NCBI RefSeq assembly: GCF_016862935.1
Contig: NZ_BONX01000038.1
Location: forward strand, 1-64,000
DNA from: Plantactinospora mayteni
Lineage (GTDB): Bacteria > Actinomycetota > Actinomycetes > Mycobacteriales > Micromonosporaceae
Direction: 5' to 3'
Length of the DNA stretch: 64,000 nucleotides
Part shown: piece by piece, positions 14,902 to 29,701 of the stretch
How positions within the stretch are numbered: the first letter of the stretch is position 1
Layout of the letters: the number at the start of each line of letters is the position of its first letter
Notes under the pieces: model-generated
The model's input: the letters and a program-made list of their open reading frames with translations, nothing else
The model's database searches: none
What the model was told of the DNA's origin: nothing
Made by a program: the position numbers and the translations under genes

Positions 14902-16229
14902 CAATGAACGACAGTGACGTGCGCGACATCTTGCATCGCGCGACGGACGACCTGGTCGGCACGCCGGGTCTGCTCCTCGCGGTGCGCCGGGGTGGACGCC
15001 GCCGGGTGGTGCGTCGCCGGGCCGTGTTGGCGGCCGTCTGCGCGGCCGTGGTGGCCGTGCCAGTGGTTGGCGGACTTCAGTTGGCAGGCGACGGAGGAGA
15101 GGTGCGGGTCGCTTCACCACTACTTGACGAGCCTACCCGCGGTGATCTGGCCGCCGACGAGGGTTACCTGCGGCAGGTTCGCGAGGCGTGGCAGCGCCGA
15201 CTGGAGCAGAATGGAGATCAGATGCGCGGCGAGCCGCACATCGTGTGGGCAGGAAGTACGCCTGCTGGCCCGGCCGCCTACGTCGCCCACCGCACTGCGA
15301 AGAATCCGGTTGTGAGCGAGCCGGCAAATGATCGAATGATCGCGATGGCAGCGTTCGTCGAACCTACCACCGAAGGGCCGCGCGTCATGACGATAGAAAC
15401 GGTCACCGACGCGGGAACCGACGGCAACTCACAGGCAGCACTGCTCGGACCGCAGCGCGACGTGCTCCTCGTGCTCGACTTCGGGCAGCCGGTGGAGTTC
15501 TCACCGGAGCTCAAGTACATGCCTGACGGTAAAGTCAAGCGAACCTTCCAGCCGGTGGCGTTCCGAGACGGTGCGGCCGTACTCGCGGTGCAGCCACAAC
15601 GCACGAAGATCACGGTCGGGCTCGCCAGGACGCCGGTCAGGCAGGAAAACGTCGTTCATATCACCAACGCCATGGCCATTATGTTCCCGAACGGCGATAG
15701 CCCAGCACCAAGGTCGCTCCGTTACGCGTTGCCCGGGGCGGAACAGGCGTGGGGCGGCGACCCCACCACGCCTGAATACCAGAACAAGCCGGGCGCTCAG
15801 GAAGTCGGCGTCCAGGGGACCGAAGCACTCGCCGAATACATCGACCCCGTGGGCGCGCACCGCAGCGACGGTTCCCCCCTGTTGTCCATCTACGGGGTGA
15901 CTCCCGACAGTCGGCGACTGCTCGTCGAAACCATCCAGTTCGACGACGAGCCTGCGCGCGTCATCGCACTGCTCGCCCGAAACGACGAGCCTTTCCAAGC
16001 AGTTGCCAGCACGTTTGCGGACTGGACGGCGCCCCTGCCGGTGCGGCTGCGACTGCCTGACAATCAGGGCATCGTAGTCGCCGCCGAAGGGGCAGCGCTG
16101 AGCTACCGAATCCGCGATGGCAAATGGCAGAACGCTGGCCGCAACGCAGCACTCCTACCCGCCGATGCCACCGACGTGCGTGTCACCGACGCCAGCGGAA
16201 CCGTCACCAGTATCCCAGTCACTACCTAA
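14898..16229 (+). CDS. Membrane-anchored partner of the SigE-type sigma factor
   Basis: This 443-residue protein overlaps the sigma gene by 4 bases (ATGA). It has a short cytoplasmic N-terminus (DSDVRDILHRATDDLVGTPG), a basic RRGGRRRVVRRR stretch and one membrane segment (AVLAAVCAAVVAVPVVGGL, residues about 42-60). A large extracytoplasmic part of roughly 380 residues with mixed beta structure follows. The topology and coupling fit an anti-sigma-like sensor, although no zinc-binding anti-sigma motif (HxxxCxxC) is seen. Similar pairs are common in Micromonosporaceae and Streptomyces. Role as an anti-sigma factor is inference. Confidence 0.75.
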   Translation: MTMNDSDVRDILHRATDDLVGTPGLLLAVRRGGRRRVVRRRAVLAAVCAAVVAVPVVGGLQLAGDGGEVRVASPLLDEPTRGDLAADEGYLRQVREAWQRRLEQNGDQMRGEPHIVWAGSTPAGPAAYVAHRTAKNPVVSEPANDRMIAMAAFVEPTTEGPRVMTIETVTDAGTDGNSQAALLGPQRDVLLVLDFGQPVEFSPELKYMPDGKVKRTFQPVAFRDGAAVLAVQPQRTKITVGLARTPVRQENVVHITNAMAIMFPNGDSPAPRSLRYALPGAEQAWGGDPTTPEYQNKPGAQEVGVQGTEALAEYIDPVGAHRSDGSPLLSIYGVTPDSRRLLVETIQFDDEPARVIALLARNDEPFQAVASTFADWTAPLPVRLRLPDNQGIVVAAEGAALSYRIRDGKWQNAGRNAALLPADATDVRVTDASGTVTSIPVTT

Positions 16230-16293
16230 CCCGACCCGGCGTCCTCACCAGATCGCATCGACCGAGCCACGCCTGCCGGCTCACCACCTCGCT

Positions 16294-16382
16294 GAACCTT
16301 TTTCAACCCTCCTTGCGGTCCGACGGACCGCAGGGTCGGACGCGGTGCGTGAGCGCCGCGCGGTTCAGGTTGAAAAAGGTTC
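16294..16382. repeat. Nested inverted repeat, 15-bp outer arms
   Basis: GAACCTTTTTCAACC at 16294-16308 has its exact complement at 16368-16382. Inside lies a second hairpin, TGCGGTCC / GGACCGCA (16314-16332) with a 3-base loop. It lies between two convergent genes (stops at 16229 and 16505), so a bidirectional terminator is the simplest reading; a small mobile palindromic element is an alternative. Confidence 0.65.
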
Positions 16383-16504
16383 ACTGAGTCGGCAGGCGTC
16401 CGGCGGCACCGCCGCCGCCGAGTATCCGGCCGAGGCCGTCCGGATCGTCCGGGCGGCCTTGACCTCGGGTACGGGGTACGTCTGGCGCGGGATAGCGGAG
16501 AGAG

Positions 16505-17233
16505 CTAGGCGCCCCGGGTGATCCGCAGGGTCAGCACGTCGGTCCGGACCGTGATGTGCCCGTGGAACAGGGCCAGCCCCTCCGCGTTGTAGCCGATCTG
16601 GGTCGCGCTGACCAGCGGATGGCCGATCGGTACCCCGAGCCGCCCGACCGCCGCCTCGTCGGCGAGTACGGCGGCGAACTCGATCTCGGCCCGGCGTACT
16701 GGCATGCCGGTGGCGCCGGCCAGGAACTCGAACATGTCCAGGTCGATGCTGACCAGGCCGGACGGGTCGAGTTCGCGCTCGCCGACCCGCAGCGGCAGGT
16801 GGTCGCGGATCCAGGCCGCCGCGACGCCGTCGACGGCGAAGAGCCGGTCTACCCGCCAGACCGGCGAGCCGACGTCCAGCCCGAGGATCTTGGCGCAGTC
16901 GTCCGGGCACTCGGCCCGGCTGACCGTCGCGTCCTGGAGCGCCGGGCGGTGCCCGGAGGCGGTGATCCGGTCCCGCAGCGCGGTGACGTCACCGATCGAC
17001 ACCGGCACCCGTTCGGCCGGCTCGCTGACGAAGGTGCCGACCCCCCAGGTCCGGGTCAGTACGCCCTCGGCGGCGAGCTGCCCCAGCACCTCCCGTACGG
17101 TGGCCCGGCTGACCGCCAGCCGGTCGGCCAACTCCCGCTCGTTGGGCAGCTTGTCACCGGTCCGGAACTCGCTGCCGATCAGATCGCGCAGTTGGCCCTG
17201 CGCGGTCTGTAGCGCGGTCTCGCGCCGAGCCAT
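16505..17233 (-). CDS. GntR/HutC-family regulator with UTRA domain
   Basis: The 242-residue product starts at ATG 17233 (a TTG lies directly before it). The N-terminal winged helix reads GQLRDLIGSEFRTGDKLPNE, RELADRLAVSRATVREVLGQ and LAAEGVLTRTWGVGTFV, and the C-terminal half is a UTRA ligand-binding fold (DVGSPVWRVDRLFAVDGVAA, PLVSATQIGYNAEGLALFHG). HutC-type members sense a small metabolite and usually repress a nearby catabolic operon. It lies 106 bases downstream of the last gene of the peptide-transport operon in the same direction, so it is probably the regulator of that operon and may share its transcript. Confidence 0.9.
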   Translation of the reverse strand: MARRETALQTAQGQLRDLIGSEFRTGDKLPNERELADRLAVSRATVREVLGQLAAEGVLTRTWGVGTFVSEPAERVPVSIGDVTALRDRITASGHRPALQDATVSRAECPDDCAKILGLDVGSPVWRVDRLFAVDGVAAAWIRDHLPLRVGERELDPSGLVSIDLDMFEFLAGATGMPVRRAEIEFAAVLADEAAVGRLGVPIGHPLVSATQIGYNAEGLALFHGHITVRTDVLTLRITRGA

Positions 17234-17339
17234 CAACCCTCACCTCTTCGCTCCGCCGCGCCAGCTACGGCGTACGGAGTGTAGTAGTTGGGTGTCCACC
17301 CGATCGACGCCCGAGCGGGTGCACCCACCACCGAATTCG

Positions 17340-18545
17340 TTACCAGACCTGTTCCAGTACCCGGATGGTGTTGCCACCGATGACCTTGGCGATCTCGTCG
17401 TCCGAGTAGTCGTGCTTCACCAGCCAGCCGACGATGTTGCCGAACGCCTCGCCCGGGTTCTCCACCCCGGAGACGTACTCGACGCGGGGGTGCGCCGGCT
17501 TGTGGCCGGAGTCATGACCGTAGTTGCCGGCGTACGTCTGGTGCACCCCGACGTGGTCGCCGAACATCGTGTCCGGGCCGAACGTCACGTGGTCGATGCC
17601 GACCAGGTCGACGCAGTAGCTGAAGTGGTCCATCACCGACTCCAGCGAGTGCTCCAGGTGCGCCTCCGACAGGGTGGTGTGCGGGGCGGCCTCGATGCCG
17701 ATCACCCCACCCCGCTCGGCGCAGGCCCGGATCACCTCGTCCGGCTTCATCCGCGAGGTGTTCCAGACCGACCGCGCCCCGGCGTGCGTGATGAAGACCG
17801 GTACCCGGCTGGCCTCGATGGTGTCCAGGCAGGTCTGGTCGCCGGAGTGCGACACGTCGATGGCGATGCCGAGCTTGTTCATCCGGTCGACCGCGCGCCG
17901 GCCGAAGTGGGTCAGCCCGCCGTCCCGGGCCTCCGACAGCCCACCGCCGAGCATGTTCGCCTGGCTGTACGCGATGCCGAGCTGCCGCACCCCGAAGCCG
18001 TACAGGATGTCGATCCGGTCCAGTTCGTTCTCGATCGGGGTGCAGCACTCCAGGCCGGCGACCAGGGCCAGCCGGCCGTCCCGCTTCGCCGCGCGGATGT
18101 CGGAGAGCGAGGTGGCCAGCGTGACGTAGTCCTGCTGGTGGAGGTCGCTCATCCGCATCCCGAGGGCGTAGATCAGGTCGTTCCACTTCCAGCCGTTCTC
18201 GCTGGTCACGCAGGAGGCGCCGGCCATGAAGTTGTCGAAGACGGCGGTCAGGCCGGACCGGGCCAGCCCCTCGTAGCCGGTCCGCTGCCGGGCGGTCCGG
18301 TTGTAGGCGCGCAGCTCGGTGACGTCCGCCGGCAGGATCACCGGGTGCTCGTGCAGGGAGATCGCGATGTGCTCGGCGAGCAGGCGCGTGACCCGCTGCC
18401 GCTGCGCGTCGGAGAGCCCGAGGTCGTGCTCGGGTACCCGACCGATCTCCGGGGCCAGCTCGAAGACCCGGTAGTCGGCGTGTGGCTCCAGATACGAGTA
18501 GGACTTGTGGCCCTGGTACCGGGAGGCGGGTTCTTGCAGCAACAC
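17340..18545 (-). CDS. Peptidase family M19 (renal dipeptidase-like), copy 1
   Basis: This 401-residue soluble protein belongs to the M19 metallo-dipeptidase family. The C-terminal two thirds carries family hallmarks: LVAGLECC with a bridging-Glu position, DGGLTHFGRRAVDRMNKLG, IDVSHSGDQT (metal His) and FITHAGAR (second His), then VGIDHVTFGPD. The N-terminal D-x-H-x-D metal motif of classical members is not seen; the nearest segment is SLHEHPVILPAD, so the metal site may be divergent. The start is GTG 18545 behind AAGGAGA, or a TTG one codon on. It is the last enzyme gene of the transport operon and a close paralogue of the gene at 26162, with long identical runs. Hydrolysis of dipeptides or other cyclic or amide substrates is likely. 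Confidence 0.85.
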   Translation of the reverse strand: MLLQEPASRYQGHKSYSYLEPHADYRVFELAPEIGRVPEHDLGLSDAQRQRVTRLLAEHIAISLHEHPVILPADVTELRAYNRTARQRTGYEGLARSGLTAVFDNFMAGASCVTSENGWKWNDLIYALGMRMSDLHQQDYVTLATSLSDIRAAKRDGRLALVAGLECCTPIENELDRIDILYGFGVRQLGIAYSQANMLGGGLSEARDGGLTHFGRRAVDRMNKLGIAIDVSHSGDQTCLDTIEASRVPVFITHAGARSVWNTSRMKPDEVIRACAERGGVIGIEAAPHTTLSEAHLEHSLESVMDHFSYCVDLVGIDHVTFGPDTMFGDHVGVHQTYAGNYGHDSGHKPAHPRVEYVSGVENPGEAFGNIVGWLVKHDYSDDEIAKVIGGNTIRVLEQVW

Positions 18546-18578
18546 TTTCTCCTTACGGGACGGAACGGTGCGTCGTGG

Positions 18579-19622
18579 CTAGGCGGCGGCCAGCGGGTAG
18601 TGGCAGGCGACCGCGCGGGCGTCGCCGGTCAGCGGTGGTTCGGTGCTGGCACAGGTCTCGGTCGCCTGCCAGCAGCGGGTACGGAACCGGCAGCCGGATG
18701 GGGGGTCGACCGGGCTCGGCGGATCGCCGCTGAGGAGAATCCGCTTCCGCTCCGCCCGGCCGACCGGTTCGGGGACCGGCACCGCCGAGAGCAGTGCCCT
18801 GGTGTACGGGTGGGCCGGCGCGTCGTACAGCATCGGCTCGGGGCCGCTCTCCACCAGCTTCCCGAGGTACATCACCGCCACCCGGTCGGAGATGTGCCGG
18901 ACCACCGACAGGTCGTGCGCGATGAAGACGTACGCCACGCCCAGTTCCCGCTGGAGTCGTTCCAGCAGGTTGACCACCTGGGCCTGGACGGAGACGTCGA
19001 GCGCGGAGACCGGCTCGTCGCAGACGATCACGTCGGGTTGCAGGGCCAGCGCCCGGGCGATGCCGATCCGCTGCCGCTGCCCGCCGGAGAACTGGTGCGG
19101 ATAGCGGTCCAGGTGCACGCTCGCGTCGAGCCCGACCAGGTCGAGCAGCTCCCTCACCCGGTCCAGCCGCCGCCTCCGGTCCAGCACGTCGGGGTGGATC
19201 TCGAACGGCTGGAGCAGGATCTCCCGGATCGTCCGGCGTGGGTTCAGCGAGGTGTACGGGTCCTGGAGCACGATCTGGATCCGCCGGCGCAGTGCCCGCA
19301 GCTCCCGTCCCCGGGCGGCGTGCACCACCGCGTCGCCGAAGCGCACCTCGCCCGCGGTCGGCCGCTCCAGCCCGACCAGCATCCTCGCCAGGGTGCTCTT
19401 GCCGCAGCCGGACTCGCCGACGATGCCGAGGGTCTCGCCCCGGCGCAGGTCGAAGGAGACCCCGTCGACGGCCTTGACCACCCCGCCGGAGGTGAATGGC
19501 AGCCGCCCCTTCACCGGGAAGTGCCGGACCAGCCTGTCGACCCGCAGCACCAGATCGCCCGGCTCGGCTCGGTGCCGCCCGAGCTTGTCGGCCACCTGCT
19601 GGCCGGAGTCATCGGCTGACAT
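18579..19622 (-). CDS. Dipeptide/oligopeptide ABC transporter ATP-binding subunit (DppF/OppF type)
   Basis: This 347-residue ATPase has Walker [10 protein letters not shown] (residues about 73-81), Q-loop [17 protein letters not shown], signature [15 protein letters not shown], Walker [13 protein letters not shown] and H-loop FIAHDLSVV. The C-terminal oligopeptide extension typical of the family has the GCRFRTRC segment. It overlaps the DppD gene by 14 bases. Together with DppD it forms the asymmetric ATPase pair that energises uptake through the DppB/DppC channel. The clear operon arrangement makes the assignment secure, though the true substrate may not be a peptide. Confidence 0.93.
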
Positions 19623-20607
19623 GCAGCAACTCCTCCCGGTGGTGGCAGGCGCTGGCGCGGCCCTCGGGCAGCGGCTCCAGCGCCGGCAGCGTGGCCCGGC
19701 AGACGTCGTCGGCGCGCGGGCAGCGCAGGTGGAACGGGCACCCGCTGGGCAGCCGGGCCGGGTTCGGCGGGGCGCCGGGGATGGCGTACAGCTCCTCGTC
19801 GCGCCGGTCGATCCGGGGCATCGAGGCGAGCAGCCCCTCGGTGTACGGGTGCGCCGGGCCGGCGAAGACCTGCCGTACGCTGGCCCGTTCGACGATCCGG
19901 CCGGCGTACATCACCGCCACGTCGTCGGCGACCTCGGCCACCACACCCAGGTCGTGGGTGATCAGCAGCAGCGCCATCCCGCTGTCCCGCTGGATCTCGG
20001 CGATCAGCTCCATCACCTGCGCCTGCACGGTCACGTCCAGTGCCGTGGTCGGCTCGTCGGCGATCAGCACGTCCGGCTCCAGCGCGATGGCCAGCGCGAT
20101 CATGATGCGTTGCCGCATCCCGCCGGAGAACTGGTGCGGATAGTCGCGTACCCGATCCTTCGCGGCCGGGATGTGCACCCGGTCGACCAACTCGATCGCG
20201 CGGCGGCGGGCGGCGGACCGGGACAGCCCCCGGCGGACCCGGAGCAGCTCGGCGAGCTGCTCCCCGACGGTGTAGACCGGGTTGAGCGTGGCCATCGCGT
20301 CCTGGAAGACCATGCCGATCTCCTCGCCGCTGACCCTGTCCCGCTGCTTCGGGGTCAGGGTCAGCAGCTCCCGGCCGCGCAGCCGGACCGAACCGCCGAC
20401 CCGGGCCGGTGGCACGTCGAGGATCCCCATCACCGCCTGCGCGGTGACGCTCTTGCCGGAGCCGGACTCGCCGAGGATCGCCAGCGTCCGGCCGGACTCC
20501 AGCGCCAGCGACACCCCGTTGACCGCCTGCACCGCGCCGGCCGACCCGGCGGCGCCGCCCGGCCCGGGGAAGCTGACCCGCAGCTCCTCGACCTCCAGCA
20601 GGGCCAT
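19609..20607 (-). CDS. Dipeptide/oligopeptide ABC transporter ATP-binding subunit (DppD/OppD type)
   Basis: The product has 332 residues from ATG 20607. It carries Walker [10 protein letters not shown], the Q-loop [16 protein letters not shown], signature [17 protein letters not shown], Walker [13 protein letters not shown] and H-loop [10 protein letters not shown], and ends in the oligopeptide-type C-terminal Cys region ([14 protein letters not shown]). An open frame runs further upstream, but the ABC fold begins at [13 protein letters not shown]. The start codon overlaps the stop of the upstream hydrolase by one base (TAATG), and its own end overlaps DppF, so expression is tightly coupled. 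Confidence 0.93.
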
Positions 20608-21476
20608 TACCGGATCCCGGCCGAGTCGAGGAAGTCCCGCACGGTCCGCTGGAACAGCTCCGGCTCCTCCAGTTGCGGCGAGTGCCCGGAGTGCTCGAAG
20701 ACCACCAGCTCGGCGTTCGGGATCAGGTCGGCGATCACCTGCGAGGCGGCCACCGGGGTACGCCAGTCGTGCCGGCCGACGGTGACCAGGGTCGGGCAGG
20801 TGATCGAGGGGAGCTGCGGCTTGAGGTCGTAGCGCGGCATGTTCTGCCCGAACGCGGCGTTGTGGGTCCGGTAGTGGAACCGGGTCGCGGCCAGTTTGGC
20901 GGCGTCCTTCGCCGGGTCGTGCTGGTGGTCGTAGAGCGGCAGGATTGCCTTCCAGTACTCCCGGAGCTGCTCGTTGCTCTCGAAGTGTCCGGTGCCGATC
21001 CGGTCGATCGCCCACTGCGGGATCACCGTCCGGTCGGTGTTCTTCGCCTTCTCGACCGCCAGCTCGTTGTGCCCGTTGTCGGCGGCGGTGTCCCGCAGCA
21101 CCAGCGCGGCGACCCGGTCCGGATGCGCCACGGCGTATTCGAGCGAGACGAAGCCGCCGTACGAGCCGCCGGCCATCACGATCTTTTCGTAGCCGAAGTG
21201 CTCCCGGATGGCGTCCACGTCGGCGACCCACTGCTGGTGGGTGAACGGCTCGTCGTCGCTGGACTCGCCGGAGCCGCGTGCGTCGAAGACGATCACCCGG
21301 TACCGGTCGGCGAACGGCCCGAACGAGCGCTTCGGTTCGGACCGGGAGCCGAGCCCGGGGGCGCCGTGGTGCACGATCATCGCCGGGGCGTCGACCGGGC
21401 CGAACGCCTCGACCACCAACTCGGCGCCATTGATCTTCAGCCGACCCGCGAAACTGGACGGGTTGTCGACGGTCAC
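20607..21476 (-). CDS. Alpha/beta hydrolase, prolyl-iminopeptidase-like
   Basis: This 289-residue protein shows the full alpha/beta-hydrolase set: oxyanion-hole HHGAPGLGSR, strand VIVFDARGSGES, nucleophile elbow GGSYGG (residues about 105-110), the acid GRHDWRTP and the His in FEHSGHSPQLEEP. The order and spacing resemble prolyl aminopeptidases and related amidases. No signal peptide is seen, so it acts in the cytoplasm. It overlaps the M24-type gene by 4 bases (ATGA) and DppD by one base. It probably cleaves the imported compound or an intermediate of it. The true scissile bond is not known; esterase or lactonase activity cannot be excluded. Confidence 0.88.
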   Translation of the reverse strand: MTVDNPSSFAGRLKINGAELVVEAFGPVDAPAMIVHHGAPGLGSRSEPKRSFGPFADRYRVIVFDARGSGESSDDEPFTHQQWVADVDAIREHFGYEKIVMAGGSYGGFVSLEYAVAHPDRVAALVLRDTAADNGHNELAVEKAKNTDRTVIPQWAIDRIGTGHFESNEQLREYWKAILPLYDHQHDPAKDAAKLAATRFHYRTHNAAFGQNMPRYDLKPQLPSITCPTLVTVGRHDWRTPVAASQVIADLIPNAELVVFEHSGHSPQLEEPELFQRTVRDFLDSAGIR

Positions 21477-22648
21477 CGGACCTCCTCGATGATGTTGGAC
21501 GCGAGATCGCGCGGATAACCGGTCAGCCGGCGCGGCCCGGCCTCCTCGACCAGTACGGTGTCGGAGATCCGGTAGCCGGCGTGCTCGGGTACGTAGACGC
21601 CGGGCTCGCTGGAGAGCAGCATCCCGGGCTCCAGCACGGTGTGGTCACCGTCCTCGACCCAGGGCGCCTCGTGGTTCTGCAACCCGATGCCGTGCCCCTG
21701 CCTGTGCCGGAGGTAGTCGCCGAGGCCGTGCCCGCGCAGGACGTCCAGGCAGGTCCGGTTAACCTCGGCGCAGGTCCGGCCGGCCCGCATCGCCTGGGTG
21801 CCCACCTCCTGGGCCTCCCGGTCCGCCTCGTAGTAGCGCTGCTGTTCCGGGGTCGGCTCGCCGACGACGAAGGTGCGCTCGCTCTCCACGAACCGGCTGG
21901 CCACCGCCGCGCCGAGGGAGAGGATCAGGGTGTCGCCGGGCTGGATCCGCCGCCGGGTCGGCAGGCCGTGCGGCAGTGCCGAGTTCGGGCCGGCATAGAC
22001 CAGCCCGCCGGCCAGTTTGGTGGTGTAGACGACGAGGTCGTAGTCGGCGTACATCCGGTCGGTGCCGTAGCCGATGACGTGCCGGGCGATCTCGTCCTCG
22101 CGGGGGAGTTCGGTGCCCCGGCGCAGCGCGTCGGCGATCAGTTCCCGGCCGGCCGCGAGCATCTCGTCGCAGATCCGCGCCGCCGCCTCGTGGTAGGGGA
22201 TCTCCTCGGGAAACTTGCGCAGCCGCAGCTTCGCCACCGCGTCGGTGGTGACCAGTGTGCTGCCGCCCAGCGCCCGGGACAGCGCCCGGTACGCCCCGAT
22301 CGACAGTCCCGCGCTCACCCCGATCTGCTTCGCCGCCCGGCCGGCCAGCGCCGTGCCGAGGGTCTGCTCCGCGCTCACCACCCCGGGGTACTCGAAGTAG
22401 CTGACCGTCTCGATCTTGACACTCTGCTGGGCGGCGTACTCCTCGTCGAGGCGGGGGATCACCAGCAGCGGATCGCCCTCGCGGGGCATCCAGAGGTAGA
22501 CCGGCCGTTCGGTGGCGATGTAGAAGAACCCGGAGAGGAACGCCACGTCGGCGGGGGAGGTGGCCAGGAACCCGTCGAGGCCGCGTACGTCGAGCGCGTC
22601 GGCCAGCCGGGCCCGGACGGACGAGTAGAAACTGTCGGGCAGACGCAC
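21473..22648 (-). CDS. M24-fold ('pita-bread') hydrolase with altered metal site
   Basis: This 391-residue protein has the creatinase-type N-terminal domain (LDGFLATSPADVAFLSGFFY) and a C-terminal pita-bread domain with RQGHGIGLQNHEAP and LLSSEPGVYVPEHAGYRISD. In Xaa-Pro peptidases five residues bind two metals (D, D, H, E, E). Here the first Asp block reads LILSLGAAVAS (Ser instead of Asp), the second reads SERTF (no Asp), and the last Glu is Ser (RISD instead of RIED-type). His and one Glu remain. Creatinase and ectoine hydrolase are M24-fold enzymes without metal, so this may be a metal-independent amidinase or amidase. It overlaps the downstream hydrolase by 4 bases and lies 4 bases after the DppC stop. 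Confidence 0.85.
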   Translation of the reverse strand: MRLPDSFYSSVRARLADALDVRGLDGFLATSPADVAFLSGFFYIATERPVYLWMPREGDPLLVIPRLDEEYAAQQSVKIETVSYFEYPGVVSAEQTLGTALAGRAAKQIGVSAGLSIGAYRALSRALGGSTLVTTDAVAKLRLRKFPEEIPYHEAAARICDEMLAAGRELIADALRRGTELPREDEIARHVIGYGTDRMYADYDLVVYTTKLAGGLVYAGPNSALPHGLPTRRRIQPGDTLILSLGAAVASRFVESERTFVVGEPTPEQQRYYEADREAQEVGTQAMRAGRTCAEVNRTCLDVLRGHGLGDYLRHRQGHGIGLQNHEAPWVEDGDHTVLEPGMLLSSEPGVYVPEHAGYRISDTVLVEEAGPRRLTGYPRDLASNIIEEVR

Positions 22649-22651
22649 GGG

Positions 22652-23542
22652 TCAGGCTCCGTTCCGGCGAGGGTCTCGGATGTCGTTGAACCGCATGCCG
22701 GCGACCGTCGCGGCGAGCACCAGCAGCAGGATGGCCAGCGACGGGAAGAGGGTCTGCCACCAGGCGATGGCCACCACCCCGCTGCGCTGGGCGTTGAGCA
22801 GGATCCGCCCCCACGACCAGGCGTCCGGGTCGCCGAGGCCGAGGAAGCTCAGCCCGGCCTCGGAGATGACCGCCCGGGACGCGGTGAGCAGCACGCTGAC
22901 CACGATCAGCGGTACCACCGCCGGCAGGATCTCCCGGGTGACGATCCGCCATCCGGTGGCGCCGAGCACCCGGGCCCCGTCGATGTACGGCATCGCGCTG
23001 ACCACCAGCCCCTGCGAGCGGATCAGCCGGGCCACCTCGGGCCAGGCGAAGACGCCGATGATCACGGTCAGCGTCCAGACGCTCGGGTTGACGATCGCGG
23101 CCAGCATGATCATCAGGGGCAGGGTGGGCAGCGCCAGCATCACGTCGGTGACCACAGTGCCGACCGCGTCGACCCGGCGGAAGTACGCCGAGGCGAGCCC
23201 GATCGCCGTACCCAGCACGATGGCGATCAGCGAGGCCGCCACCCCGATCAGCAGACTGGTCCTGGTGCCCCAGACCACCTGGGCGAAGATGTCCTGCCCG
23301 AGGTCGTCGGTGCCGAACAGGTGCCCACCGGAGGGGGATCGCAGCACGTCCGGGCTGGTACCGCCCGGCTCGTCGGCGATCAGCGGCGCGAGGACCGCGA
23401 GCAGCACCATCACCACCAGCACCGCCGCGGCGAGCAGCCCGGACGGCTGCCGGAAGAACGTCCGCCACGCCGACCGGGCCCCGACGGCCGGCTCCGCCGC
23501 CGGCACGGTCGCCGCCGGCTCGGTCATCAATGGCGCGCTCAC
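22652..23542 (-). CDS. Dipeptide ABC transporter permease (DppC type)
   Basis: The 296-residue permease starts at GTG 23542, overlapping the DppB stop (GTGA); an ATG at 23527 is the alternative. It has about six hydrophobic segments, starting with LLAAAVLVVMVLLAVLAPLI. It also has the DppC N-terminal signature HLFGTDDLGQDIFAQVVWG and the EAA-type loop YIDGARVLGATGWRIVTREI, followed by LPAVVPLIVVSVLLTASRAV. It forms the membrane channel with DppB. The order B-C, then hydrolases, then D-F is an unusual interruption of the usual BCDF gene order. Confidence 0.93.
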   Translation of the reverse strand: MSAPLMTEPAATVPAAEPAVGARSAWRTFFRQPSGLLAAAVLVVMVLLAVLAPLIADEPGGTSPDVLRSPSGGHLFGTDDLGQDIFAQVVWGTRTSLLIGVAASLIAIVLGTAIGLASAYFRRVDAVGTVVTDVMLALPTLPLMIMLAAIVNPSVWTLTVIIGVFAWPEVARLIRSQGLVVSAMPYIDGARVLGATGWRIVTREILPAVVPLIVVSVLLTASRAVISEAGLSFLGLGDPDAWSWGRILLNAQRSGVVAIAWWQTLFPSLAILLLVLAATVAGMRFNDIRDPRRNGA

Positions 23543-24492
23543 AGCCGGATCCTGGGGTTGAGGACCGCGTAGAGCAGGTCGGTGAGCGCGTTGGCGACCA
23601 CCACGGTGATGGCGAGCATGATGAACGCTCCTTGCAGGACGGGATAGTCGCGTTGCCCGACCGCCTCGTAGATCAGCCGGCCGACCCCGGGATAGGCGAA
23701 GACGGTCTCGGTGAGCACGGCACCGCCGACCAGGGTGCCGAGTTGCAGCCCCATCAGGGTCAGCGCCGGCAGGATCGCGTTGCGCAGGCCGTGCTTCCAC
23801 AGCCGACGCCGGGCGGAGAGGCCCCGGGCCCGGGCCGCCCGGATGTAGTCCTCGCCGAGTACCTCGATCAGGTTGGTCCGCAGGGTCAGCGCGTACGGGC
23901 CGAGTTGCACCAGCACCAGCGAGGCGACCGGCAGCACCAGGTGGTGCGCCAGACTCAGGTACGCCGCCAGGCCCCGGGTGTCCGGGTCGATCGCGCCGCC
24001 GATCGGAAACCAGCCGAGCCGGGCGCCGAGCCAGACCAGCAGCAGCATCGCCACGCTGGGTACGAAGAGGGCGTGCCCGGCGATGCCGAAGCCCTGGAGC
24101 AGCCGGTCCGGCCAGCGGCCCCGGTGTGCCGCCGCCGACACCCCGATCGGGATGCCGACGGCGATGGTGAGCAGGAACGCCACCCCGGCCAGCAGCAGGG
24201 TCCAGGGCAACCGGTCGAGCAGGATGTCGGCGACCGGCTGGATCTGCCGGAACGAGATGCCGAAGTTGCCGTGCAGCAGTTCGCGCAGGTACGAGACGTA
24301 CTGTTCCAGCAGCGGCCGGTCCAGCCCGTACGTCTCGAGCAGCGCCGCCCGCATCTCCGGCGTCATGTCCCCCTCGACCATCAGGGTCGTGGGGTCCCCC
24401 GGCAGCAACCGGAGCAGGAAGAACGTCGCGGTGATCGCTATCCAGACGGTCAGTACGGCCTTCAGCACCCGGTTGAGCACGAAGCGTGCCAC
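23539..24492 (-). CDS. Dipeptide ABC transporter permease (DppB type)
   Basis: This 317-residue protein begins MARFVLNRVLKAVLTVWIAI, a DppB/OppB N-terminal membrane segment, followed by FLLRLLPGDPTT, which is a DppB family hallmark. Six membrane segments are visible, with the EAA loop DYIRAARARGLSARRRLWKH and GLRNAILPALTLMGLQLGTL near the C-terminus. It lies 35 bases downstream of the binding-protein gene and overlaps DppC. It is one half of the transmembrane pore. The assignment rests on sequence pattern and operon order. Confidence 0.94.
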   Translation of the reverse strand: MARFVLNRVLKAVLTVWIAITATFFLLRLLPGDPTTLMVEGDMTPEMRAALLETYGLDRPLLEQYVSYLRELLHGNFGISFRQIQPVADILLDRLPWTLLLAGVAFLLTIAVGIPIGVSAAAHRGRWPDRLLQGFGIAGHALFVPSVAMLLLVWLGARLGWFPIGGAIDPDTRGLAAYLSLAHHLVLPVASLVLVQLGPYALTLRTNLIEVLGEDYIRAARARGLSARRRLWKHGLRNAILPALTLMGLQLGTLVGGAVLTETVFAYPGVGRLIYEAVGQRDYPVLQGAFIMLAITVVVANALTDLLYAVLNPRIRL

Positions 24493-24527
24493 CTTGGGGA
24501 CCCCTCCCTCCTACCTCGTCCCGTCGG

Positions 24528-26165
24528 TCAGCCGACCGGCTTGACCTGGGCCAGCGAGTACGCGGTGACCATGCCGAGCAGGTCGGACGGCGAGGCCACG
24601 AAGCCGGTGAACTTGCTGGCGTTGTAGGCGAACTGGAAGTTCTCCACGTAGAGCGGCGTCAGGTACGCCTGCTCGTGCACCACCTTGTCGATGTTCTTGA
24701 TCTTGGTGGCGAACGCCGCCGGATCGGTGGTGGCCGCCGCGTCGTTGATCAACTGGTCGATCTCCGGCGACGTGAGCAGGTTGTAGTTGATCCCGCCCGG
24801 GTTGCTGGAGAGGTAGGTGCTGCGGAGCTGGTCCATCGGGTTGTCGAAGACACCCCACTGCGACGCGTCGATGTCGTACTCGCCCTCCTTGGTGCGGGAC
24901 AGGAAGGTGTTCCGCTCCACGCACTCGTTGGTCAGCTTGATGCCGGCCTGCGCGGCGCTCTCCCGGAAGAGCTGCACCACCCGGGTGAGGTTGGCGTTCG
25001 ACTGGTCGCAGGCCACCCCGAGGTCCAGACCGTCGAAGAGGCCGTCGCCGTTGCCGTCGGAATAGCCGGCCGCGGCGAGCTTCGCCTTCGCGCCGGCCGG
25101 GTCGAAGGGGTACGGCTGGATCTCGGTGTTGTCGTAGTCGGCGAAGATCGGCGAGATCGGCCCGGCCATCTGCTGGGCGTCGCCCTGGAGCACCGACGAG
25201 ATGATCGACTTCGTGTCGATCGCCATCGACAGCGCCTGCCGGACCTCCTGCTTGGCCAGGTCCTTGTTGGTCATGTTGTAGGTCAGGTGGGCGAAGCCGA
25301 GCGCACCGACCTTGGTCAGCTTGATCTTCGAGTCGTTCGCGAAGGTCTTCGCCGCCGACGCCGGCACCGGGGTACCCATCAGGTCGATGTCGCCGTTGCG
25401 CAGCGCCAGCATCATCGTGTTGACGTCCGGGTAGAGCCGGAACTCGACCTTGCCGACCGCCGGCCTGCCGCCGGGCGCCAGCGGGTACTTCTCGTTGCGC
25501 TTCATCACGTACCGCTGGCCCTTGGTGGCGCTCTCCAGTACGAACGGCCCGGCACCGACCCAGTCGGAGTCGTTGGCGAACTTCGACAGGTCACCGGCGG
25601 ACTCGAAGACGTGCTTCGGCACGATCGACATCCAGAACCCGACGCCCTCGGCGAACGGCGCGTACGGCTGGGAGAGGTGGAACTTCACCGTGGTCGGGTC
25701 GGGCGCCTCGATCGAGGTGACCCAGGTGAGCTTGGCGGCCACGTTGCCGAGCTTGTACTTCATGATCGACTCGGCGCTGAACTTGACGTCCTCGGCCACC
25801 ACCGGCTTGCCGTCGGTCCAGGTGAAGTCGTCGCGCAGCTTGAAGACCGCCGTCTTGCCGCCGTCCTCGTAGGTGTACTCCTTGGCCAGCTCCGGCGCCT
25901 TCTTCGCGTTCTCGTCGATCCGCAGCAGGTGCGGGTACATCGCGTTGAGGATCCAGGAGTCGGTCTTGCTCAGCGACTGGAGCGGGTTGAAGTTCGACAC
26001 GTCGGTGGTGGTGCCGATCCGCAGTACGTCGCCGCCGCCGGAGCTGTCCCCGGACGACGAGTTGCCCTCGTTGAGCCCGCACCCGGACAGGCCGAGCGCG
26101 GCCGTCGCGCCGAGCGCGACGGCGACCCGCCACCGGCGGGCCGGGCCGGAAAATGTTCTGCTCAC
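24528..26165 (-). CDS. Peptide-type ABC transporter substrate-binding lipoprotein (SBP family 5)
   Basis: The 545-residue product starts at GTG 26165, overlapping the stop of the M19 gene (GTGA). A signal peptide with twin basic residues and lipobox LGLSGC (Cys near residue 26) anchors it to the outer membrane face, and a Ser/Gly-rich linker follows. The mature protein has SBP_5 segments: DVLRIGTTTDVSNFNPLQSL, DDFTWTDGKPVVAEDVKFS, GAGPFVLESATKGQRYVMKR, ALSMAIDTKSIISSVLQGDA and DGNGDGLFDGLDLGVACD. It captures the solute and delivers it to DppBC. SBP_5 proteins bind di- and oligopeptides, but also nickel-chelates, glutathione, opines and others, so the ligand is open. Confidence 0.93.
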   Translation of the reverse strand: MSRTFSGPARRWRVAVALGATAALGLSGCGLNEGNSSSGDSSGGGDVLRIGTTTDVSNFNPLQSLSKTDSWILNAMYPHLLRIDENAKKAPELAKEYTYEDGGKTAVFKLRDDFTWTDGKPVVAEDVKFSAESIMKYKLGNVAAKLTWVTSIEAPDPTTVKFHLSQPYAPFAEGVGFWMSIVPKHVFESAGDLSKFANDSDWVGAGPFVLESATKGQRYVMKRNEKYPLAPGGRPAVGKVEFRLYPDVNTMMLALRNGDIDLMGTPVPASAAKTFANDSKIKLTKVGALGFAHLTYNMTNKDLAKQEVRQALSMAIDTKSIISSVLQGDAQQMAGPISPIFADYDNTEIQPYPFDPAGAKAKLAAAGYSDGNGDGLFDGLDLGVACDQSNANLTRVVQLFRESAAQAGIKLTNECVERNTFLSRTKEGEYDIDASQWGVFDNPMDQLRSTYLSSNPGGINYNLLTSPEIDQLINDAAATTDPAAFATKIKNIDKVVHEQAYLTPLYVENFQFAYNASKFTGFVASPSDLLGMVTAYSLAQVKPVG

Positions 26166-27364
26166 CAAACCTCCCGAAGAACGCGAATGATGTTGCCGCC
26201 GATGACCTTGGCGATCTCGTCGTCGGAGTAGCCGTGCGTGACCAGCCAGCCGACGATGTTGCTGAAGCACTCGGCCGGGTTCTCCAGCCCCGAGACGTAC
26301 GGCACCCGGGGGTGGTCGACCGCGCCGTGCGCCTTGCCGATCGCCAGGTGGCCGGTGAAGCTGTCGTGCAGCCCGACGTGGTCGCCGAAGTTGGTGTCCG
26401 GGCCGAACGCCACGTGGTCGATGCCGACCAGCTCGACGCAGTAGACGAAGTGGTCCATCACCGACTCGATCGAGTGGTGCGGGTGTGCCGGCGAGAGCGT
26501 CGTGTGCGGGGCGGCCTCGATGCCGATCACCCCGCCCCGCTCGGCGCAGGCCCGGATGACGTCGTCCGGCTTCATCCGAGGGGTGTTCCAGACCGCGCGG
26601 GCGCCGGCGTGGGTGATGAAGACCGGTACCCGGCTCGCCTCGATGACGTCCAGCGAGGTCTGGTCGCCGGAGTGCGAGACGTCGATGGCGATGCCGAGCT
26701 TGTTCATCCGGTCGACCGCGCGCCGGCCGAAGTGGGTGAGCCCGCCGTCCCGGTCCTCGGAGAGCCCCGAGCCGAGCATGTTCGCCTGGCTGTACGCGAT
26801 CCCCATCTGGCGTACGCCGAACCCGTACAGGATGTCGATCCGGTCCAGCTCGTTCTCGATCATCGTGGCCGCCTCCAGCCCGGCCACCAGGGCGAGCTGG
26901 CCGTTCCGCTTGGCGGTGAAGATCTCGGCGAGGGTGCTGGCCACGACCACGTAGTCCTGCTTGGCGATGTCGGCGAGGCGCAGCCCGATGTCGTAGACGA
27001 CGTCGTCCCACTTCCAGGCGTGCTCGCTGGTCACGCAGCCGGTGCCGTTCATGAAGTTGTCGAACACCGCGGTCATGCCGGACCGGGCCAGGCCCTCGAA
27101 GCCGAAGGAGTTGCGCCCGGTGCGGTTGTAGTCCCGCAACTGGGTCACGTCGGCCGGCAGGATCTTGGGGTGTTCGTACAGCGAGATCGCGGTGTGCTCG
27201 CGCAGCAGCCGGGAGACCCGGTCGGATTGGTCGTCGGTCAGGCCGAGATCGTGTCCGGGCACCCGGCCGAGTTGTGGGGCGAGGTCGAACACCTTGAAGT
27301 CGACCTGCGGGGTCAGATAGTCGAACGACCGGTATCCCGTATAGCGGGAAGCACGTTCCTGCAC
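26162..27364 (-). CDS. Peptidase family M19 (renal dipeptidase-like), copy 2
   Basis: First gene of the operon, 400 residues. It shares long identical stretches with the copy at 17340: RDGGLTHFGRRAVDRMNKLG, IAIDVSHSGDQT, VFITHAGAR and RACAERGGVIGIEAAPHTTL. The N-terminal metal region reads SLYEHPKILPAD, compared with SLHEHPVILPAD in copy 1. The first His of that segment is thus not conserved and the classical D-x-H-x-D is absent in both. No signal peptide is seen, so both copies act inside the cell. The stop overlaps the start of the binding-protein gene. Having two M19 genes at the two ends of one operon suggests different but related substrates or a hetero-oligomer. Confidence 0.86.
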   Translation of the reverse strand: MQERASRYTGYRSFDYLTPQVDFKVFDLAPQLGRVPGHDLGLTDDQSDRVSRLLREHTAISLYEHPKILPADVTQLRDYNRTGRNSFGFEGLARSGMTAVFDNFMNGTGCVTSEHAWKWDDVVYDIGLRLADIAKQDYVVVASTLAEIFTAKRNGQLALVAGLEAATMIENELDRIDILYGFGVRQMGIAYSQANMLGSGLSEDRDGGLTHFGRRAVDRMNKLGIAIDVSHSGDQTSLDVIEASRVPVFITHAGARAVWNTPRMKPDDVIRACAERGGVIGIEAAPHTTLSPAHPHHSIESVMDHFVYCVELVGIDHVAFGPDTNFGDHVGLHDSFTGHLAIGKAHGAVDHPRVPYVSGLENPAECFSNIVGWLVTHGYSDDEIAKVIGGNIIRVLREVW

Positions 27365-27403
27365 TGGTCAGCTCACCTCGGAACACTCAGAGGCATGAGG
27401 ATG

Positions 27404-27418
27404 GAGGTCTGACCTCCT
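27404..27418. promoter_or_regulatory. Palindrome GGAGGTC-T-GACCTCC upstream of the peptide operon
   Basis: A perfect 7+1+7 palindrome lies 40 bases before the first operon gene. Its core GGTCTGACC occurs again at 27613-27621 in the same intergenic region. Together they are candidate operators for the GntR/UTRA protein encoded at the end of the operon. Confidence 0.45.
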
Positions 27419-27612
27419 GCCTTTCCGGGACCGTACGTGAGTTCACTGCGCATTGGGAAGATCTCGTGATCCGACCGTTATCTACCGAGCGTCGCCGGAC
27501 GGTGCCGGAAACCTGCTGGTAATAGCCTTAGCAGAGCCGGAATCGGACGAGGGCTGCGCGGATCGCCGCGAGAGCGATCGGTCGCCCGTGAGTCGAAGAC
27601 CAACCTGCCAGA

Positions 27613-27621
27613 GGTCTGACC
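27613..27621. promoter_or_regulatory. Second GGTCTGACC core upstream of the peptide operon
   Basis: Same 9-bp palindromic core as at 27407-27415, about 206 bases away, which would allow looping by a dimeric repressor. A third occurrence lies inside the GlxA coding region (about 28237) and may be chance. Confidence 0.35.
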
Positions 27622-27785
27622 ACTGCTGATCGGTCGGCTGGTACGGCCGTTCGGCCGACCCCCGATGCCGGCATCGGGGCCAGACTCTGGGACGCCCGGC
27701 CGGGCGCGGCAGCGTGGCCGCCGACGAACTCCCACCCCGCGGCGACGGCGTGTACCGGCCCCGCGCCGGCCCGGCCAGCGCGCAT

Positions 27786-27840
27786 CAAGATTCTTGGCGA
27801 ATTGTGGTTCGCGACGAGCCCGAGTTCGCCAAGAATCTTG
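27786..27840. repeat. 16-bp perfect inverted repeat with 23-base spacer
   Basis: CAAGATTCTTGGCGAA at 27786-27801 is matched exactly by its complement at 27825-27840. Stem and base composition stand out from the surrounding GC-rich sequence. It resembles the palindromic element at the right end of the window (63945-63994) in design, with long perfect arms and a short GC-rich loop. Confidence 0.7.
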
Positions 27841-27963
27841 GACGTTCACCCGCGCAGCCGTCGACTCGCCGACGGGGCGATGTGGAGGGATGCGACGGGG
27901 ATGGCCGAAATCGTCAGTGTCCTGTCATTGCTGCCGGACCCGCGATCCCGAAACGATGGGCGG

Positions 27964-29040
27964 GTGGACGTCCGCCGCATCGTTTTCGTGATCTTCCCGA
28001 GGTTCCAGGTACTCGACCTGACCGGCCCGCACGAGGTGTTCGCGCAGGCCGACCGGCTCGGGCAGGTCGATCGGCTCGTGCAGGCCGACCGGCTCGCGCA
28101 GGCCGACCGGCTCGCGCAGGTGGACCGGCTCGCGCAGGTGGAACGGCTCGCGCAGGCCGACCGGCTCGCGCAGGTGGAACGGCTCGTGCCGGGTTACCGG
28201 CTGGAGACCGTCGCCCCGCGGCCCGGGCCGGTCGCGGCCAGCGGTGGTCTGACCGTGACGCCCGACCTCGCCATCGACGAGTGCGTCGGGCCGATCGACA
28301 CCCTGGTGGTCGTCGGCGGCGCCGGCCGGGTCGAGGCGTGCACCGACCGGCGGCTGATCGACTGGCTCCGCGCCGCCGCCGGGCGGGCCCGACGGGTCGC
28401 CGCCGTGTGCGGCGGGGCGTTCCTGCTTGCCGAGGCCGGGCTGCTCGACGGCCGGCGCGCGGTCACACACTGGAGGAGCTGTGCTGAACTGGCCCGCCGC
28501 TATCCGGCGGTGACCGTAGAGCCGGATCCGATCTTCGTCCGGGACGGTGCCGTGTGGACCTCCGCCGGGGTCACCGCCGGGATCGACCTCGCGCTCGCCC
28601 TGGTCGAGCAGGACCGGGGCGCCGACGTGTCCCGGGCGATCGCCCGGCAACTGGTCATGTTCGTCCAGCGTCCCGGTGGCCAGGCCCAGTTCAGTACCCA
28701 GCTCGCCGCGCAGCGGCCGACCCGTGGCGGACTGCGCCAACTCCTGGCCTGGGTGGTCGAGCACCTCGCCGACGACCTCACCGTGCCGGTCCTCGCCGCC
28801 CGGGTCGGGATGAGCGAGCGGCACTTCGCCCGGGTGTTCAGCGCGCAGACCGGGCAGACCCCCGCCGCGTACGTCGAGGCAGCCCGGGTCGAGGCCGCCC
28901 GGCGCCTGCTGGAGAGCACCGACACCCCGCTCGGCTCCGTTGCCCGGCGCTGCGGATTCGGCACCGTCGAGACGATGCACCGACGCTTCCGACGCACGGT
29001 CGGGGTCACCCCCGGCCAGTACCGCCAACATTTCGGCTGA
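27964..29040 (+). CDS. GlxA-family (DJ-1/PfpI + AraC HTH) transcriptional regulator
   Basis: The 358-residue regulator starts at GTG 27964. The N-terminal DJ-1/PfpI domain begins RRIVFVIFPRFQVLDLTGPH and has the nucleophile-elbow Cys in AAVCGGAFLLAEAGLL; the C-terminal AraC-type domain has two helix-turn-helices (DDLTVPVLAARVGMSERHFA, PLGSVARRCGFGTVETMHR). Directly after GPHEVFA an insert of eight 6-residue repeats of the type Q-A/V-D/E-R-L-x occurs, absent from normal family members. The next gene, a DJ-1 protein, lies 13 bases downstream and is probably co-regulated. Similar pairs control isonitrile or amidase-type functions, but the target here is not shown. Confidence 0.92.
   Translation: MDVRRIVFVIFPRFQVLDLTGPHEVFAQADRLGQVDRLVQADRLAQADRLAQVDRLAQVERLAQADRLAQVERLVPGYRLETVAPRPGPVAASGGLTVTPDLAIDECVGPIDTLVVVGGAGRVEACTDRRLIDWLRAAAGRARRVAAVCGGAFLLAEAGLLDGRRAVTHWRSCAELARRYPAVTVEPDPIFVRDGAVWTSAGVTAGIDLALALVEQDRGADVSRAIARQLVMFVQRPGGQAQFSTQLAAQRPTRGGLRQLLAWVVEHLADDLTVPVLAARVGMSERHFARVFSAQTGQTPAAYVEAARVEAARRLLESTDTPLGSVARRCGFGTVETMHRRFRRTVGVTPGQYRQHFG
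28045..28188 (+). repeat. Eight in-frame 18-bp repeats in the GlxA gene
   Basis: Eight units of CAGGCCGACCGGCTCGCG type, some with V-E instead of A-D, encode repeats of QADRLA/QVERLA. They insert into the loop after the first helix of the DJ-1 domain. Copies are near-identical, which points to recent slippage and possible length variation between strains. Confidence 0.9.
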
Positions 29041-29053
29041 AAGGACCAGCAGC

Positions 29054-29701
29054 ATGCGTATCGTGATCCCGCTCTTCGACCAGTTCACCGCCCTCGACGC
29101 CGTCGGCCCGTACGACGCACTCAAGTTGCTGCCCGGCGCCGAGGTGGTCTTCGCGGCTACCAACCCCGGACCGATCCGGAACAACCGTCGTAGCCTGGCC
29201 CTGACCGCCGACGCCGCGCTGGACGACATCGACTCCTGCGACGTACTCGTGGTCCCCGGGGGCCCCGGCGTCGACGCGCACCTCGCCGGCGGGCCACTGC
29301 CGGACTGGATCCGGCGGATGCACGACGGCACCCGGTGGACGACCTCGGTCTGCACGGGAGCATTGCTGCTCGGCGCCGCCGGACTGCTGCGTGGGCGTAC
29401 CGCCACCACACACTGGCGGAGCGCGGAACGGCTGGCCTCGTTCGGCGCGACCTACTCGGCACAGCGGGTGGTCGCCGACGGCAAACTGCTCACCGGCGCG
29501 GGCGTCTCCGCCGGGATCGACATGGCGCTCACCCTTGCCGCGCAGCTCGCCGACCGGACCACCGCCGAGGCCATCCAGCTCGCCATCGAGTACGACCCCC
29601 AGCCGCCCTTCGACGCCGGGTCCCCGGCGAAGGCGTCCCAGGCGGTCCGGGACCGACACGCCAGTGGCCTGCTGACGAGCACCCGGCCGGCAGCGGGCTG
29701 A
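29054..29701 (+). CDS. DJ-1/PfpI-family protein (isonitrile-hydratase-like)
   Basis: The 215-residue protein starts at ATG 29054 behind AAAGGA, 13 bases after the GlxA stop. It is a single DJ-1/PfpI domain: MRIVIPLFDQFTALDAVGPY, then VLVVPGGPGVDAHLAGGPLP, the nucleophile Cys in WTTSVCTGALLLGAAGLLRG, and AERLASFGATYSAQRVVADG. The sequence plan resembles isonitrile hydratase and related cyanide-handling DJ-1 proteins rather than chaperone DJ-1. A Thr-Thr-His-Trp (TTHWRS) segment follows the Cys. Translational proximity to GlxA means the two probably act together. Exact activity is unknown. Confidence 0.88.
   Translation: MRIVIPLFDQFTALDAVGPYDALKLLPGAEVVFAATNPGPIRNNRRSLALTADAALDDIDSCDVLVVPGGPGVDAHLAGGPLPDWIRRMHDGTRWTTSVCTGALLLGAAGLLRGRTATTHWRSAERLASFGATYSAQRVVADGKLLTGAGVSAGIDMALTLAAQLADRTTAEAIQLAIEYDPQPPFDAGSPAKASQAVRDRHASGLLTSTRPAAG

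Follow-up and report, generated by a model that had tools for sequence, protein, structure and literature searches.

A recurrent ten-gene operon of Plantactinospora mayteni, probably for import of a peptide-like compound and its cleavage by hydrolases with drifted active sites

The best-studied system of a logic resembling that considered here, if only by analogy, is aap/pip of Pseudomonas sp. GM79. In the portions of the published accounts drawn upon here, two of its peptidases have been purified, its ATP-binding cassette (ABC) transporter is required for the response to leaf macerate, and that response rises upon deletion of the peptidases (PMC4981722), with the signal described as an ethanolamine derivative (PMC10134790). 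A plan apparently in common, i.e., an SBP5-type ABC peptide importer along with alpha/beta peptidases and a regulator, is seen in an operon found on the minus strand of the window, by which is meant the whole 64,000-nucleotide stretch of Plantactinospora mayteni DNA analyzed (contig NZ_BONX01000038.1, positions 1 to 64,000). The two differ in their regulators, however, as the LuxR-type regulator beside the pip genes has as its counterpart here a GntR-family protein with a UTRA domain, and no M19 or M24 protein is described for aap/pip in those same portions.

Also comparable are the Dpp, Opp, and App importers, with which the operon has in common an SBP5 binding protein, permeases B and C, and ATPases D and F. 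The operon departs from these in having four hydrolase genes built in and in that all of its matches to NCBIfam equivalog models fall below the curated cut-offs. It can be viewed as a variant of the Dpp/Opp uptake-and-hydrolysis kind, one for which no description was found in literature searches covering open-access papers. Its products probably import a small peptide-like compound which is then cut by hydrolases whose active sites have drifted from those of their namesake peptidases.

A fixed gene order and its relatives

Read from 27364 down to 16505, the ten genes, all on the minus strand, encode a first M19-family protein, M19a (26162..27364, 400 residues); an SBP5 solute-binding lipoprotein (24528..26165, 545 residues); a DppB-type permease (23539..24492, 317 residues); a DppC-type permease (22652..23542, 296 residues); an M24-fold hydrolase (21473..22648, 391 residues); an alpha/beta hydrolase, ABH (20607..21476, 289 residues); a DppD-type ATPase (19609..20607, 332 residues); a DppF-type ATPase (18579..19622, 347 residues); a second M19-family protein, M19b (17340..18545, 401 residues); and, lastly, a GntR-family regulator with a UTRA, HutC-type ligand domain (16505..17236; PF00392 and PF07702). 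Each of the ten Pfam assignments exceeds its family's gathering cut-off. The gene content, order, and end coordinates put forward in an earlier note, made from the sequence alone, thus are confirmed for all ten genes by coordinates and by Pfam.

The tight linkage which that note had described is borne out as well. That is, five junctions overlap, by 4 nucleotides between M19a and SBP5, DppB and DppC, and M24 and ABH, by 1 nucleotide between ABH and DppD (TAATG), and by 14 nucleotides between DppD and DppF. The other junctions are gapped, by 35 nucleotides between SBP5 and DppB, 3 between DppC and M24, 33 between DppF and M19b, and about 103-106 between M19b and the GntR gene, for which ATG at 17233 is a likelier start codon than TTG at 17236. 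A consensus scan from 16200 to 27900 returned neither sigma-70 promoters nor intrinsic terminators (zero of each), and co-transcription across all junctions thus is something that we infer from spacing and conservation only.

Named genomes were scanned for relatives of the M19 proteins, with 352 found and the best 80 kept, which together represent 61 loci, a set that is biased toward similarity; loci were classed by tblastn along with clustering of called genes. The complete ten-gene order, here the first form, is present in 26 of these 61 loci, which rules out a chance neighborhood; the ten-gene arrangement is a real and recurrent bacterial operon. It is also, as the note had supposed when it called the order non-standard and proposed a search of gene neighborhoods, an unusual arrangement, albeit one that is fixed across relatives.

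A sister form, M19-SBP-B-C-M24-ABH, with a single M19 gene and an Lrp/AsnC regulator, makes up another 26 of the 61 loci. All six of its genes are found in 22 of these, with M24 missing from three (L073, L074, and L087) and one (L086) being without B and C and having a shortened SBP gene. DppD and DppF are located upstream and divergently in 23 of the 26. In certain sister-form loci (L066, L067, L070, L077, L085, and others) one ATPase gene of approximately 550-577 codons matches both DppD and DppF, apparently as a fusion of the two. Lrp/AsnC regulators are found in 31 loci, i.e., the 26 sister-form loci plus five loci in which M19 lacks a transporter (L083, L084, L089, L093, and L094), with their domains identified by Pfam in one. 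GntR, with which the first-form operon ends, is present in 29 loci, consisting of the window, the 26 complete loci, L060, and L062. The four loci which remain are pieces, with L040 and L060 coming from separate contigs of a single Micromonospora, while L051 and L062 are from Rugosimonospora. In Rugosimonospora africana it is M19a with ABH (L051) and M19b with GntR (L062) that lie on separate contigs, possibly a natural minimal set.

The genome supplying the window holds both forms, its sister-form copy (L107, G000:C19:3500-22500) being complete and having Lrp in place of GntR. Within the genus, first-form M24 is found in five of seven genomes, as is sister-form M24. Spread across the phylum is patchy, with the M19 family detected in five of 396 evenly drawn genomes, that of P. 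mayteni included (E <= 1e-60, at most four candidates scored per genome), and the operon consequently is not ubiquitous. By name, many of the host organisms are plant- or soil-associated.

More distant arrangements are seen as well. Deinococcus plasmids carry SBP-permease-permease, then one or two other genes, then M19-ABH-M24, or instead M28-SBP-permease-permease-M19. The alphaproteobacterium Terrarubrum has DppF-DppD and B-C-M24-ABH, with a second ABH and an SBP gene on the opposite strand (40-59% identity), and no M19 gene in the 17-kb stretch. On two haloarchaeal plasmids M19 adjoins M28 as well as a racemase or M20 hydrolase. A BPL_N-domain protein is located either at the operon's end or within it in both Pseudonocardia and Deinococcus QL22 (L085:16731-18059 and L123:7481-8965). 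Two copies of M24 relatives, 43% identical, are found on Neorhizobium galegae plasmids (L121 and L122), being split as annotated in L122 and set within a cluster of ABC-transporter and amidohydrolase genes. Histidine-kinase/SpoIIE, SNF, Nramp, and DUF genes adjoin some sister-form loci, but differ between genera and were set aside.

Hydrolases with altered active sites

The closest known proteins to M19a and M19b are renal-type M19 dipeptidases (Sco3058, 3s2j; DPEP1, 1itq; GliJ, 5lwz) and the Pseudomonas aeruginosa amidohydrolase 2i5g. Both proteins score far above the PF01244 gathering cut-off of 26 (224 bits for M19a, 213.5 bits for M19b), and an NCBIfam search assigned neither to a family. 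Held in common with the dipeptidases are the barrel fold, the bridging Glu, two later metal-binding His residues, the catalytic Asp, and an Arg. Across 98 aligned rows these are retained as E164 in 97 and as H231, H252, D323, and R263 in all 98. An AlphaFold model of M19b (mean predicted local distance difference test score, pLDDT, of 86.2) places the motif residues at or just after strands 62-66, 159-165, 228-230, 251-255, and 320-322, as would be expected of an amidohydrolase barrel. The first 20 Foldseek matches to that model are all M19-type enzymes, led by 2i5g and Sco3058, with an engineered GliJ D38H structure (5lx4, going by its title) found among the matches.

What has changed is the HxD metal motif. 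The M19 fold is retained, that is, and so is most of the metal site, but HxD is not. The operon M19s read S-L-H-[DE]-H where 13 of 15 other M19 rows from relatives read D-G-H-N-D, and have Tyr in the place of an active-site His that is held by 13 of 15 compared rows. They differ from the dipeptidases also in approximately 60 extra N-terminal residues and a conserved FGPDTxFGDH insertion, and are only 21-23% identical to solved M19 structures. HxH is found in 96 of the 98 rows, exceptions being L101 (HxS) and M19a of the window itself (YxH, motif SLYEHP, versus SLHEHP in M19b). The first motif His is present in 97 rows, as is the second, with only the window's M19a lacking the first. Residue 63 of that protein is Tyr, where four congeners carry His, a difference that is either a recent strain change or a sequence error, and by which this M19a may be impaired. 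M19a and M19b, in short, belong to an M19 branch that has diverged, with HxH in place of HxD, so dipeptidase activity is not to be assumed. Of the earlier description of these as two M19 dipeptidases, family and fold stand but the enzyme name does not.

The two M19s are 74% identical to each other. In a tree of the 98 rows the M19a copies together with L040 and L051 form one group (support 99/98), while the M19b copies with L060 and L062 form another (84/75, which is moderate support). Both groups split alike, Micromonosporaceae versus the rest, indicating that M19a and M19b had separated before the first-form host families diverged. Recent local duplication as the origin of the pair is ruled out by this tree.

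With the M24-fold protein (PF00557 plus PF01321, the latter Creatinase_N) more of the metal site is altered. Relative to Pyrococcus furiosus prolidase (1pv9), its residues at the five metal-ligand places are S244, E255, H319, E348, and S362, where prolidases have D, D, H, E, and E. Two of the five ligands are Ser, that is, and a third has gone from Asp to Glu; in prolidase numbering, the replaced residues are D209 (now S244), D220 (now E255), and E327 (now S362). Retained, and prolidase-like, are the PH motif (H227), the GHG motif (H319), and E348. The S/E/H/E/S pattern is identical in all 51 M24 sequences, window included. In a wider set of 22 which includes Deinococcus and Terrarubrum rows these places are kept in 21-22, that of S244 being Ser in 21 and Gly in the Deinococcus row, and H227 is kept in every sequence.

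An AlphaFold model of this protein (pLDDT 85.1) has PepE as its nearest structural match, at a template-modeling (TM) score of 0.84, along with prolidases, followed by creatinases, ectoine hydrolase DoeA, and DddP. The two-domain pita-bread fold thereby is common to prolidases and PepE (1pv9 and 4ege, TM 0.74-0.84), to creatinases (7yto, 1kp0, and 1chm, TM 0.80-0.82, a likeness of fold only), and to DoeA (6twk, TM 0.75), which has kept the PH histidine. Creatinase and ectoine hydrolase catalyze without metal, and these and the operon's M24 protein are alike in being without the full prolidase metal site. The description of this protein as creatinase-like thus holds so far as fold goes, with PepE nonetheless ranking first. 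It is no closer to ectoine hydrolase, which the earlier note also names among M24 members. Beyond the common fold, the five places in DoeA (as read through L114) are occupied by E, P, Y, a hydrophobic residue, and T, and the match to TIGR02993 is 59.1 bits against a cut-off of 613. No protein exceeding that cut-off was found in a search of 61 family genomes. The active-site residues of this M24 protein, judged by sequence, match those of neither prolidase nor ectoine hydrolase.

The alpha/beta hydrolase (PF00561, 114.7 bits) has kept its Ser-Asp-His triad, S105/D237/H265, in all 55 sequences. It scores 106.4 bits against the NCBIfam model for proline iminopeptidase (TIGR01250, cut-off 167.65) and 107.8 bits against that for the enol-lactonase PcaD, also below cut-off. 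The protein thus appears to be equally close to iminopeptidases and enol-lactonases, and its chemistry is not fixed by family. An iminopeptidase-like label for this protein fits the triad of the S33 fold but not the curated cut-off.

These observations bear directly on a first alternative, which is that this is an ordinary nutritional operon for dipeptides or proline peptides, with M19, M24, and ABH serving as working dipeptidases, prolidase, and proline iminopeptidase, respectively. Family names, folds, and a Dpp/Opp-type transporter are all consistent with such a role, as is the Lrp/AsnC regulator of 26 of 26 sister-form loci, which fits with amino-acid supply, and so too R263 of M19, the Arg for the substrate carboxylate, which none of the 98 rows lacks. 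What does not fit, however, is that all 51 M24 sequences have Ser at two of the five metal-ligand places and Glu for Asp at a third, that HxD is replaced by HxH in M19 and the first His is lost from the window's M19a, and that ABH falls below the iminopeptidase cut-off. We consider a purely nutritional role to be unlikely.

Import, regulation, and possible substrates

The transporter is of the Dpp/Opp type, combining an SBP5 protein (PF00496, SBP_bac_5, 272 bits), two permeases (PF00528 in both, with PF19300, BPD_transp_1_N, in DppB and PF12911, OppC_N, in DppC), and two ATPases (each PF00005 plus PF08352, oligo_HPY) within a single operon. A lipobox (LSGC) is seen, by eye, only on the SBP, with M19a, M19b, M24, and ABH lacking signal peptides by the same inspection. 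Between the sister form and the window identities are 39-46% for SBP, 66-70% for M19, and 57-61% for ABH; the binding protein diverges fastest, that is, as expected if the chemistry has been kept and the ligand has shifted.

AppA (1xoc) is the best solved relative of the SBP, at E 1.5e-44, with the aap/pip binding protein AapF fourth-best at E 1.7e-36. A second alternative is that the operon is an actinobacterial counterpart to aap/pip (PipR), with an imported plant or microbial amide inducing the operon and then being destroyed in a feedback loop. Its parts are those one would look for, i.e., an SBP5 importer, iminopeptidase-family hydrolases, and a regulator, going by the cited portions of PMC4981722 and PMC10134790; AapF is the fourth-best of the solved SBP relatives, many hosts by name are associated with plants or soil, and there is a dedicated putative operator. 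Yet the SBP is not closely akin to AapF, which is no closer to it than are other SBP5 proteins, and AapF kinship was rejected as a pointer to a PipR system. Nor is the regulator LuxR, being GntR or Lrp instead; M19 and M24 are absent from aap/pip as those portions describe it, and the identity of ABH to rhizobial and other plasmid-borne relatives, an annotated pip among them, is just 33-36%. Signal quenching of this sort seems to us quite improbable.

Regulation, with the preferred reading of substrate-controlled uptake and hydrolysis, would be via a palindrome, AGGTCTGACCT, at 27405..27415 and 50 bp upstream of M19a, the putative GntR operator. When the 100 bp ahead of M19a were examined, the motif AGGTN3ACC(T/A) was present, no farther than 75 bp from the gene, in all 29 regions (the window, the 26 complete loci, L040, and L051), versus two of 466 regions ahead of other genes on first-form loci, and in its reversed form it was found in none of the 29. 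AGGTCNGACCT is present at three places in the 9.84-Mb genome versus 18 for the pattern read backwards. The palindrome persists, with central bases changed, even where GntR identity falls to 38-44%, as is the case in Jiangella, Cellulomonas, Microbacterium, and Streptosporangiaceae. A GntR/UTRA protein with a conserved palindromic site upstream of its own operon is what is expected of a local repressor, and the palindrome is probably its operator. A second, imperfect copy, AGGTCTGACCA on the plus strand (27612..27622), could be an auxiliary operator. Among the 27 other regions listed (Micromonosporaceae and sister ones), 12 carry GGTCNGACC copies between -250 and -310, a tally made by eye with no control count. 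Two extensions were rejected, one being that this site also governs the sister form (none of 26 sister-form upstream regions, each of 150 bp, has it) and the other that the remaining palindrome sites in the genome, at C23:227887 and C81:20149, show a regulon, the former appearing, by eye, to lie at a reading-frame end.

As to substrate, clues come from outside of the operon, from M19 genes without a transporter. These are adjoined by an SSF symporter in five of five loci and by an Asp/Glu/hydantoin racemase in four of five, with Pfam applied to the neighbors in L084 and L094 only and the other loci assessed by clustering. The M19 gene of L094 has amidohydrolase, hydantoinase A, and S-Me-THD genes nearby, dihydropyrimidinase, an M20 hydrolase, and an NCS1 symporter are within 10 kb of M19 in Paenarthrobacter, and a racemase adjoins M19 in the haloarchaeon Halolamina. 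Such neighbors hint at amino-acid-derived cyclic amides and lean toward the cyclic dipeptide-like compound put forward in the earlier note. In Pseudonocardia sp. MH-G8 a sister-form operon (L085) and a transporter-free M19 (L094) lie approximately 14 kb apart on one contig. Hydantoinase A, S-Me-THD, amidohydrolase, PGA_cap, and OPT-transporter genes are located between the two or alongside.

A third alternative draws upon those same neighbors. It posits catabolism of hydantoins, other cyclic ureides, or N-carbamoyl amino acids, with the M19 barrel opening a cyclic ureide or imide and the other hydrolases trimming the product. HxH is the usual motif of the amidohydrolase superfamily, in keeping with such a role, and the racemases, the hydantoinase A and S-Me-THD genes, and the Paenarthrobacter cluster can all be read in this manner. 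None of the racemase, hydantoinase, or dihydropyrimidinase-type genes is found in the operon or in its sister form, however, and neighbors of transporter-free M19 may mirror another specificity. We view this possibility as very unlikely.

The reading that we prefer, and consider somewhat probable, is of an operon dedicated to taking up and hydrolyzing a carboxylated amide, either peptide-like or cyclic, under the control of that substrate. The SBP5 lipoprotein and DppBCDF-type importer would bring into the cytosol a small carboxylated amide, whether a modified or cyclized peptide or instead a ureide or imide derived from an amino acid. There it would be cut by up to three unlike hydrolases, i.e., metal-dependent M19-family barrels with an HxH site, ABH as an iminopeptidase- or esterase-like serine hydrolase step, and an M24-fold enzyme which, having lost the prolidase metal site, is possibly metal-free as are creatinase and ectoine hydrolase. 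The GntR/UTRA repressor would bind the palindrome before M19a, to be released once UTRA has bound the compound or one of its breakdown products. The idea of uptake followed by several hydrolytic steps, as first proposed from the sequence, is supported.

Certain points weigh against this preference. M24 is gone from three of 26 sister-form loci, and M19 is absent from the Terrarubrum stretch, which means that none of the hydrolases is indispensable. The Rugosimonospora genes, moreover, are scattered, with no transporter part found beside L051 or L062. The best NCBIfam match of the SBP is to nickel-binding NikA, at 176.9 bits and so far below the cut-off of 393, and Opp-type SBPs can act also as signal receptors or metal-chelate importers. 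The operator motif, too, was defined after viewing the same upstream regions in which it was then counted, with control genes taken from the same loci and with related genomes that are not independent.

Beyond the operon, a near-perfect inverted repeat at 16269-16399, immediately beyond the 3' end of the GntR gene, is one of a genome-wide family with at least 41 genome matches (40 of 215 candidates scored) and resembles a miniature inverted-repeat transposable element or hairpin. On the other side are an AraC regulator with a DJ-1/PfpI domain followed by a stand-alone DJ-1/PfpI protein (27802-29701) and a lone condensation-domain gene (30421-31953).

Implications

A bolder version of the preferred reading, possible but doubtful, is of two new enzyme groups in one pathway. 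One would be an HxH branch of M19 able to open amides that are cyclic or otherwise protected, and the other an M24 chemistry (S/E/H/E/S) of a third and possibly metal-free sort. Between them they would dispose of a natural product or host signal, once imported, which is beyond the reach of ordinary peptidases. The M19a/M19b pair, ancient and never lost, would act, in that case, on two successive or stereochemically different bonds.

Both forms of the operon recur in soil- and plant-associated actinobacteria, several of which are antibiotic makers, and their hydrolases are everywhere annotated as "membrane dipeptidase" or "Xaa-Pro peptidase" though the residues that define those activities have changed. 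Testing would serve to correct that mis-annotation and would provide a natural HxH M19 for comparison with the engineered D38H GliJ (5lx4). The repressor-operator pair, along with its inducer, would then be a ready assay for the imported compound.

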